Of a DNA stretch of 40,042 bases, positions 38,839 to 40,042 are shown in pieces. Numbering within the stretch: the first letter of the stretch is position 1; the number at the start of each line of letters is the position of its first letter. The notes beneath the pieces are model-generated. The model was not told the DNA's origin and searched no databases. It worked only from the letters and a program-made list of their open reading frames with translations. Made by a program: the position numbers and the translations under genes. Source of the stretch: an uncultured bacterium (GTDB lineage Bacteria; Cyanobacteriota; Vampirovibrionia; Gastranaerophilales; Gastranaerophilaceae); NCBI GenBank assembly GCA_949294395.1, contig CASFGU010000067.1, positions 1-40,042 of the forward strand, written 5' to 3'.

Positions 38839-39423
38839 ATGAAAAAAATACTTGCAGCAATATTTATATTATCGGCACTCAGCATAGCAGCCACCGCGGC
38901 AGAACCTTTGAGTACTCAGGAACAGTGTATAAAACAAATTCTTGAGCAGGATGTGAGCTACAGTGCCAGAGGCTTCTTTAGCGCAATAGAGGACGGAAAT
39001 GCCGCACTTGTAAAACTATTTTTAAAATCCGGCATGAGCCCGAATACAACATACTTCAAAGTTCCTGCAATTTATATGGCAATATATTCACACCAGAATG
39101 AAATTGTTGAAATACTGCTTCAAAACGGGGTAAAACCAGACGGGGATTACACAACCGGCATAACCCCTCTTCTTGTTGCCATTAAGAAAAAAGATCCTGT
39201 AATTGTGGATACACTGATAAAATACGGGGCAAATGTCAATCTTCCCGGCGGAAACGGAAACCTGTACCCGCTGAATTATGCAATCAAAAAGAATAATGAA
39301 GCAATTGTAACAAGCCTTCTTAATGCAGGCGCAAAAACGAATGAAGATGCTCTTATTAAAGCCTTAAAAAGCAAGGACGATAATATTAAAAGTCTTGTTC
39401 TGAAAAATTTTAAAAACGAATAA
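38839..39423 (+). CDS. Secreted ankyrin-repeat protein
   Basis: A 194-residue exported protein. The signal peptide is residues 1-20 (M-K-K, hydrophobic core, then A-T-A-A). Four to five ankyrin repeats follow from about residue 45: A-I-E-D-G-N-A-A-L-V-K-L-F-L-K-S-G, then I-V-E-I-L-L-Q-N-G, then I-V-D-T-L-I-K-Y-G-A-N-V-N, then I-V-T-S-L-L-N-A-G-A-K. Such repeats bind proteins; export suggests a periplasmic or secreted role. The start is the ATG at 38839 with a perfect GAGGAGG site; an in-frame TTG 15 nt upstream is inside that site. A terminator is found 42 nt downstream. Confidence 0.85.
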   Translation: MKKILAAIFILSALSIAATAAEPLSTQEQCIKQILEQDVSYSARGFFSAIEDGNAALVKLFLKSGMSPNTTYFKVPAIYMAIYSHQNEIVEILLQNGVKPDGDYTTGITPLLVAIKKKDPVIVDTLIKYGANVNLPGGNGNLYPLNYAIKKNNEAIVTSLLNAGAKTNEDALIKALKSKDDNIKSLVLKNFKNE

Positions 39424-39464
39424 AAAATAAAACCTTGAAAATAAATATTTTTTTGCTAAACTAG

Positions 39465-39489
39465 AAGTTGCGGGAGACCGCAACTTTTT
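39465..39489 (+). terminator. Terminator of the ankyrin gene
   Basis: AAGTTGCGG and its complement around a GAGA tetraloop, followed by TTT. It also separates the ankyrin gene from the tRNA region. Confidence 0.8.
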
Positions 39490-39506
39490 AATAAATAAAA
39501 GGACAG

Positions 39507-39606
39507 GCGTGTGTAGCTCAGTTGGCCACAGTAAGTTCGCAGAACTTACGGAGTTTTAAAATTAAGCTCTATCCAACTGAAACCACAAAAAATTGAATAG
39601 TAGCAA
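39507..39606 (+). repeat. tRNA-derived repeat 1
   Basis: It opens with 19 bases identical to the 5' end of the tRNA-Arg gene at 39708 (acceptor strand, GTAGCTCAGTTGG). The rest does not follow tRNA sequence: it folds as an outer stem TCAGTTGG/CCAACTGA around hairpin GTAAGTTC-GCA-GAACTTAC and hairpin GGAGTTT/AAGCTCT. The 3' arm holds GCTCTATCCAACTGA, the reverse complement of the tRNA D-arm. It ends AGTAGCAA, as does repeat 2. It lacks anticodon and T arms and is not a working tRNA. Confidence 0.9.
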
Positions 39607-39707
39607 GCGTGTGTAGCTCAGTTGGCCATAGTAAGTTCGGAGAACTTACGGAGTTTTAAAAAATAAGCTCTATCCAACTGAAACCACAAAAAATTGAATA
39701 GTAGCAA
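39607..39707 (+). repeat. tRNA-derived repeat 2
   Basis: A 101-bp near copy of the preceding repeat, directly followed by the tRNA-Arg gene. It differs by C to T in the junction, C to G in the first hairpin loop, and a loop-length change in the A-rich loop of the second hairpin; all stems are unchanged. Confidence 0.9.
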
Positions 39708-39781
<74 letters not shown>

Positions 39782-39787
39782 AGGTTT

Positions 39788-39829
39788 AAAAAGTAAGTGT
39801 TTCAAGCCTTTTTGAAACACTTACTTTTT
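39788..39829 (+). terminator. Terminator after tRNA-Arg
   Basis: A perfect 18-bp stem (39788-39805 with 39812-39829), loop GCCTTT, ending in TTTTT. It begins 7 nt after the tRNA. Confidence 0.9.
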
Positions 39830-39850
39830 AGTAAATTATAATAAAAAATT

Positions 39851-40042
39851 CAACTTTAGTTCAACTTTTATATTTGTATTTTTTTGTCCAGTTTGATTTG
39901 TACGGATAGATAGATTATTTTGGTAAAGTTGGCTTTGTGTGGGAGTTTCCGGGTCGGAAAAATTAAGTTTACCCAAAAAATCAAACTGCCGAAATGGACT
40001 TTTTCTGGACTGTACGGATAGATTGAGATTTGCAGAATTTCA
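39851..40042. other. Non-coding repeats downstream of tRNA-Arg, at the window edge
   Basis: No gene is visible. Found here: a tandem TTCAACTTTAG/TTCAACTTTTA; a direct repeat TGTACGGATAGAT at 39899-39911 and 40011-40023 (period 112); an inverted repeat CAGTTTGATT (39889-39898) and AATCAAACTG (39979-39988); and GTCCAG (39886) facing CTGGAC (40005). Such repeats beside a tRNA often mark the edge of an integrated element, but the window ends before any integrase. Confidence 0.55.

Follow-up and report, generated by a model that had tools for sequence, protein, structure and literature searches.

In bacteria, hardly any case is known in which a single tRNA species is controlled through its own leader. 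The tyrT repeats of E. coli (rtT RNA, Rfam family RtT) carry pieces of the tRNA 3′ end, lie downstream of the tRNA and possibly give rise to a stable RNA. Pre-tRNA spacer sponges of the 3′ETS-leuZ type are functional RNAs derived from the spacer of a tRNA precursor. T-boxes and kinetic riboswitches are leaders with mutually exclusive folds that exchange strands during transcription, the output being a terminator or a ribosome site. Pieces of tRNA genes have also been reported in connection with mobile elements and integration: in an archaeon a tRNA 5′ fragment lies upstream of a tRNA by way of a mobile element (PMC3293823), and in prokaryotes partial tRNA genes arise from integration (PMC9897764), the abstracts of both reports making no mention of an antisense segment.

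Here we describe tandem units directly 5′ of a tRNA-Arg(ACG) gene, each of which starts with a copy of the 5′ end of this tRNA and carries the complement of its D-arm. The initial annotation knew of no described RNA of this form, and indeed neither an Rfam family nor an open-access paper describing such a leader was found; a search of open-access papers for such tRNA leaders yielded nothing relevant, and the main text of a survey of candidate structured RNAs in the human microbiome contains no such leader (PMC8040213). With Rfam 15, tRNA was the sole family at the gathering threshold in the window (the whole stretch of DNA analysed, 40,042 nt), the units giving only weak, chance-level matches at E ≤ 10. 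The arrangement of an own-tRNA copy and its complement before a tRNA gene is thus undescribed, and it is possibly regulatory.

The tRNA-Arg(ACG) Locus

The tRNA-Arg(ACG) gene stands at the end of the window. It is directly preceded by two repeats of 100 and 101 nt that both begin with nt 1–19 of the tRNA, as originally annotated and confirmed by sequence. Units of this kind, here and at other loci, are 70–135 nt long and follow one order: a copy of tRNA nt 1 to 12–26 whose first base corresponds to the mature tRNA 5′ end (S′), a hairpin inserted in the D-loop (P2), often a further hairpin (P3), a segment (AS) that is reverse-complementary to the tRNA D-arm and in some cases to the acceptor strand as well, and a linker with an AU-rich box. 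S′ and AS pair to form stem P1. The features of the locus are as follows.

39435–39462, + strand: promoter-like site (TTGAAA-16-TAAACT) of the tRNA-Arg transcription unit, −35 region kept in 12 genus mates
39467–39484, + strand: small hairpin of the leader (GTTGCGG-GAGA-CCGCAAC) close to where the transcript is predicted to start, seen in the sequence; in relatives with and without units, sequence altered
39507–39606, + strand: unit 1 (100 nt), from repeat comparison and folding
39607–39707, + strand: unit 2 (101 nt), adjoining the tRNA, from repeat comparison and folding
39507–39525, + strand: S′ of unit 1, copy of tRNA-Arg nt 1–19, nt 12–19 being the 5′ strand of P1
39607–39625, + strand: S′ of unit 2, copy of tRNA-Arg nt 1–19
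39531–39549, + strand: hairpin I (P2) of unit 1, with a 3-nt loop, from folding
39631–39649, + strand: P2 hairpin of unit 2, from folding
39550–39570, + strand: hairpin II (P3) of unit 1, sharing bases with the 5′ part of AS, from folding
39650–39671, + strand: P3 hairpin of unit 2, from folding
39566–39580, + strand: AS of unit 1, GCTCTATCCAACTGA, perfect reverse complement of the D-arm, last 8 nt forming P1 with S′
39667–39681, + strand: AS of unit 2, GCTCTATCCAACTGA, predicted clamp on tRNA nt 12–26, from complementarity and folding
39587–39599, + strand: AU-rich box AAAAAATTGAATA of unit 1, a motif that recurs before units and tRNAs of the family; in most pattern matches
39688–39700, + strand: AU-rich box of unit 2; in most pattern matches
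39708–39781, + strand: tRNA-Arg(ACG) gene
39719–39733, + strand: tRNA D-arm segment TCAGTTGGATAGAGC, target of AS, from complementarity and folding
39787–39830, + strand: 19-bp inverted repeat 3′ of the tRNA, likely terminator

RNA folding reproduced the structure proposed earlier, with an outer stem of 8 bp, hairpin I of 8 bp with a 3-nt loop and hairpin II of 7 bp with an A-rich loop, and each of the two units folded alone forms a three-way junction. The cores (39518–39581 and 39618–39682) have predicted energies of −23.1 and −23.6 kcal/mol, corresponding to z of about −6.3 with 0 of 200 dinucleotide shuffles equally stable; for the whole unit z is about −3.6, and again no shuffle was equally stable. 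The copies differ at alignment columns 23, 34 and 56–57 and by a gap at column 52, that is, by three substitutions and one indel rather than by three differences as originally counted, all of them in predicted unpaired positions as had been claimed. However, the three-way junction constitutes only one of two predicted, competing folds. What had been overlooked is that AS in both units is the perfect reverse complement of the tRNA-Arg D-arm over 15 nt and so exceeds the junction stem, P1 taking just its last 8 nt, and that many further tRNA genes have units built alike.

The distance from the promoter to the first S′ is 72–77 nt, compared to 62–91 nt from the promoter to the tRNA in unit-free relatives. 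The first S′ hence sits where the tRNA starts in these relatives, which places the units inside the putative tRNA transcription unit. Among 12 genus mates, five have 1–3 units at the Arg locus and seven have none, indicating that the element is dispensable; the flanks are alike with and without units. Near the predicted transcript start most genus mates have a small hairpin followed by T-rich sequence. The stem sequence of this leader hairpin varies between species with the hairpin often retained, and it may protect the 5′ end. Close to the contig end, 39899–39914 and 40011–40026 form a direct repeat of 16 bp, TGTACGGATAGATAGA.

Recurrence Within the Genome and Distribution Over Bacteria

In the genome examined (2.1 Mb, 99.9% complete; tRNAs surveyed by RF00005 searches and at single loci), 12 of 39 tRNA leaders hold an upstream copy of the 5′ end of their own tRNA, which ranks first among all tRNAs, and inspection added two more unit-bearing leaders, bringing the total to about 12–14 of the 39 tRNA genes examined. 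The tRNAs concerned are Arg(ACG), Gly(TCC), Lys(CTT), Val(TAC), Val(GAC), Phe(GAA), two Met(CAT), Ile(GAT), Pro(TGG), Pro(CGG), Leu(TAG), Leu(CAG) and Leu(GAG). The leader of tRNA-Gly(TCC) contains three units, each with the 5′ end of its own tRNA at the start and the reverse complement of its own D-arm, and in some units of this genome (Ile, Leu-TAG, Leu-GAG) the AS to the D-arm is short or missing. At single-unit loci S′ matches tRNA nt 1–7 at 259 of 280 positions. P2 occurs in few recurrent forms common to different tRNAs of the genome, for example ACTCTGCCGA..GAGAGG. An insert of the form ACTCTGCCGA-hairpin-GAGAGG is common to Met, Ile, Pro, Leu and Lys units (L087, L094, L097, L137 and L139 in the genome examined; also L221, L236, L237), which suggests spread between tRNA loci or a shared binding partner. 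A second layout is found before tRNA-Val and tRNA-Phe of other genera (L127–L133), where S′ stops at nt 12–14 and AS covers tRNA nt 7–21, so that the junction stem is built from a different part of the same antisense. The linker box, similar to TGAAAATTGAATA, also stands 5′ of some tRNAs that have no units. More generally, many tRNAs and units of Gastranaerophilales follow an AU-rich box, (T)TGAAAATTGAATA, which is reminiscent of rRNA boxA in its 3′ half and might serve as a signal for antitermination or processing.

How widely are such units distributed? Since P2 is variable and P1 depends on the tRNA, exact patterns were more specific than a covariance model and were preferred for searching; a reversed-pattern control gave 0 matches in all genome scans that used it. 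A strict pattern (AS, 15–45 nt, tRNA D-arm) is present in 41 of 383 genomes and 10 of 41 genera of the family, and a looser pattern, whose matches include second readings of the same palindrome, in 67 of 286 genomes and 18 of 50 genera of the order. As the pattern is palindromic, a few matches (e.g. L195, L060–L063, L127–L133) appear on both strands, and the tRNA side was taken. Within the phylum no pattern match was found outside Gastranaerophilales. A scan of 84,980 species returned 60 stretches, of which Gastranaerophilales, a group of gut bacteria, make up most. The matches in other phyla are single contigs, for which labels of metagenome-assembled genomes can be wrong, and they are labelled Saccharibacteria (L153 Met, L167 Arg-TCT, L186 His), Peregrinibacteria (L157 Arg-GCG, two units), Peribacteria (L164 Gly), Deltaproteobacteria (L162 Val), Bradymonadales (L201 Ile), Bacteriovoracaceae (L195 His), Bacteroidia (L189 Gly-CCC) and Oscillospiraceae (L152 Arg). 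L175, labelled uncultured Acinetobacter, has the tRNA-Gly unit sequence of Gastranaerophilales L057 and, judged by this sequence, is probably mis-binned. The leader survey of a second Gastranaerophilales genome flagged 7 of 31 tRNA leaders, in six of which the copy is near enough for a unit, and one Saccharibacteria genome has two flagged leaders (Arg-GCG, Arg-TCT).

The Antisense Segment Follows Its Own tRNA

The architecture and recurrence of the units, the co-variation of AS with its own tRNA and the predicted fold preference are established by computation. Two positions of AS have no partner in S′ and nevertheless track the tRNA. At the extra nucleotide of the D-loop the combinations of tRNA and AS are absent/absent in 30 cases, A/T in 15, T/A in 3, C/G in 1 and a mismatch in 1, and at the base after TAGAG they are C/G in 27, T/A in 21 and T/G in 2. 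Both positions were left free by the search patterns, and over tRNA nt 20–26, of which nt 21–25 were partly selected by one of the patterns, AS is Watson-Crick complementary to its own tRNA at 94% as opposed to 33% with other tRNA contexts. Moreover, in the genome examined the mean complementarity of leaders to their own tRNA is 18.3, compared to 14.5 (sd 0.54, maximum 16.8) in 10,000 permutations. Between tandem copies AS changed at 11 of 598 nt (1.8%), the rest of the unit at 113 of 2796 nt (4.0%), and pairing is kept in 6 of the 11 AS changes.

The stems provide additional evidence. P1 pairs are invariant because S′ is a tRNA copy, and P1 therefore has no covariation support. At the base of P2, 21 aligned cores show G-C/A-U and C-G/U-A changes on both sides (C-G 11, U-A 9, unpaired 1), flanked by a tandem G.A/A.G in 20–21 of the 21, and from locus to locus the stems differ by compensatory changes (GCC/GGC to GUC/GAC); P2 interiors and linkers are widely diverged. 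Homologues with compensatory changes, which the initial annotation had named as support alongside a stable RNA, thus exist in relatives and at other loci, and with them the proposed selection at the RNA level on a tRNA-derived structured leader is supported. It had been suggested that the repeats are a processed leader, a tRNA mimic or a decoy for a tRNA-binding enzyme. A structured leader is supported, but mimicry of a whole tRNA is ruled out by the missing anticodon arm, and the complementarity of AS points to a bistable leader acting in cis, not to a free-standing decoy. The unit is best explained by a conserved constraint on its 3′ arm, namely complementarity to the tRNA that follows.

Two Predicted, Competing Folds

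When the last unit and the tRNA were folded together, AS was predicted to pair with the tRNA D-arm in 80 of 84 loci and the acceptor copy of S′ to take the tRNA 3′ acceptor strand in 74 of 84. Joint compared with separate folds gave a median of −11.9 kcal/mol over the 84 loci, with the proviso that ViennaRNA energies leave out tRNA tertiary contacts and modifications, both of which favour the cloverleaf. For unit-free tRNA leaders the median is −0.85 kcal/mol (Mann-Whitney p 2e-7 versus leaders with units). When transcripts of increasing length were folded, the predicted optimum shifted from AS:S′ to AS:tRNA once tRNA nt 14–23 are made, in 9 of 9 loci tested. By prediction and covariation, the units share one feature with riboswitch-like leaders, namely two competing folds with conserved partners for both.

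How could such units act on the tRNA? We propose, with a probability of roughly 0.4, that they act in cis as leader elements, each specific for its tRNA, render the pre-tRNA bistable and thereby gate folding and maturation of the tRNA. Briefly, in state A the unit would be closed on itself through P1 and the hairpins P2 and P3, and the tRNA would fold into its cloverleaf, be cut by RNase P and be functional. In state B, AS, the 5′ part of which has extra complementarity to tRNA nt 20–26, would leave S′ for the tRNA D-arm, forming 15–21 bp. The released acceptor copy of S′ would then pair with the tRNA 3′ acceptor strand, and the real tRNA 5′ half would be clamped, so that no maturation occurs. 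Whichever state wins during transcription would set tRNA output, and the structured P2 domain would be the likely site at which a protein, a ligand or transcription speed acts. Such a two-fold switch would explain why S′ retains an acceptor strand little used by the unit and why AS is longer than P1. The part of state B that involves the acceptor copy is not universal, since this copy is lost at L065, L068, L070 and L120. Furthermore, the only tRNA-Phe gene found in the genome has units, so state B cannot be the usual outcome there. Dispensability among close relatives and the lack of a long AS at some loci likewise count against the proposal. Transcription of the leader, real switching, an effect at the tRNA level and any signal involved are inferred.

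Alternative Explanations

It could also be imagined that the units are a mutational by-product, in which the tRNA 5′ half is copied as an inverted repeat, duplicated in tandem by slippage or by recombination between S′ and the tRNA, and persists since it is nearly harmless, with gene conversion keeping S′ identical. The 0–4 copies among close relatives would fit such an origin, as would the liability of S′ and tRNA, being direct repeats, to recombine and the decay of acceptor copies in the first units of some arrays; the loci would then represent a recurrent, unexplained inverted copying of tRNA 5′ halves. We consider it unlikely, as an inverted AS would be hard to keep by conversion with the tRNA, yet AS tracks tRNA changes (C/G versus T/A) despite the wide divergence of P2 interiors and linkers, the P2 base co-varies, and units recur at a dozen tRNA genes of one genome and on single contigs of other phyla. 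The static three-way junction itself might be the functional entity, as an aptamer or protein-binding site, with AS:tRNA pairing a by-product of S′ copying. AS nucleotides that have no partner within the unit would not be expected to follow the tRNA in this case, and they do, which makes the proposal very improbable even though P2 covariation, the conserved tandem G.A/A.G and the stability of the isolated unit agree with it.

A role in trans is distinctly unlikely. Units of about 100 nt might be excised as small RNAs and, in the way reported for spacers of tRNA precursors, act as a decoy or sponge that captures an enzyme which binds tRNA (RNase P, a modification enzyme) or another RNA. The compact unit folds, an S′ that begins precisely where the mature tRNA does, also at loci of other phyla with a single unit, and P2 motifs common to units of different tRNAs in one genome are consistent with this. 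But action in trans needs neither a match to the tRNA downstream nor an AS reaching beyond S′, and the units have neither anticodon arm nor T arm. Alternatively, a minimal or remnant mobile element could integrate in the tRNA D-arm and restore the gene, leaving S′ as an attachment copy. In favour of this, the insert stands inside the tRNA transcription unit and repeats the 5′ end of the tRNA in direct orientation, and an archaeal tRNA 5′ fragment upstream of a tRNA is reported to have arisen through a mobile element (PMC3293823). In the translated open reading frames of the window, read by eye, no integrase was noticed. Units of 70–135 nt are, however, too small for genes, the similar flanks of the Arg locus with and without units speak against integration, and an AS specific for the own tRNA is unexpected for an attachment site, so that very little weight can be given to this explanation.

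Comparison With Known Systems

Several known classes do not accommodate the units. A group I intron is suggested by an IGS-like geometry, but the catalytic core is missing (about 200 nt or more would be expected, the unit having 100 nt) and there is no Rfam hit. The boxes are loosely similar to the R sites of integron attC sites, with stem, order and length misfitting by eye, and for self-cleaving ribozymes (hammerhead and others) the core nucleotides are missing by eye and Rfam gives no hit. A T-box or transcription attenuator is contradicted by a consensus scan of 39380–39880, which found no terminator-like site, and by the lack of an Rfam match.

The nearest analogue is the tyrT/rtT repeat, likewise a tandem repeat in a tRNA transcript with a short tRNA piece in each copy. 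The units before tRNA-Arg(ACG) do not belong to this type, as they copy tRNA nt 1–19, precede the tRNA, carry a D-arm antisense and lack an Rfam match. RNAs of the 3′ETS-leuZ type, unlike the units, are not made of a tRNA copy and its antisense. Archaeal intron-containing, split and fragmented tRNA genes share with the locus a 5′ tRNA fragment upstream of a tRNA gene (PMC3293823; PMC3978253), and state B would resemble a tRNA with a D-loop insert; here, however, the hosts are bacteria, a complete tRNA gene follows, and the fragments form 100-nt tandem units with antisense. Finally, riboswitches and attenuators share with the units mutually exclusive folds and strand exchange, in the units by prediction, but the output here would be the folding of the tRNA itself, the units containing no terminator-like site and matching no Rfam family. 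With less confidence than for the bistable leader as such, and as a tentative proposal more doubtful than probable, we suggest that the units form a hitherto undescribed class of control elements of tRNA genes, which occurs in several bacterial phyla and is frequent in Gastranaerophilales. In each leader a decoy of the own tRNA 5′ half and its antisense would switch the folding of a single tRNA species through exchange of strands while the transcript is being made. Were the bistable reading correct, the units would be a compact, sequence-specific means to gate the maturation of individual tRNAs, employed at as many as a third of the tRNA genes of one genome and seen in unrelated lineages.
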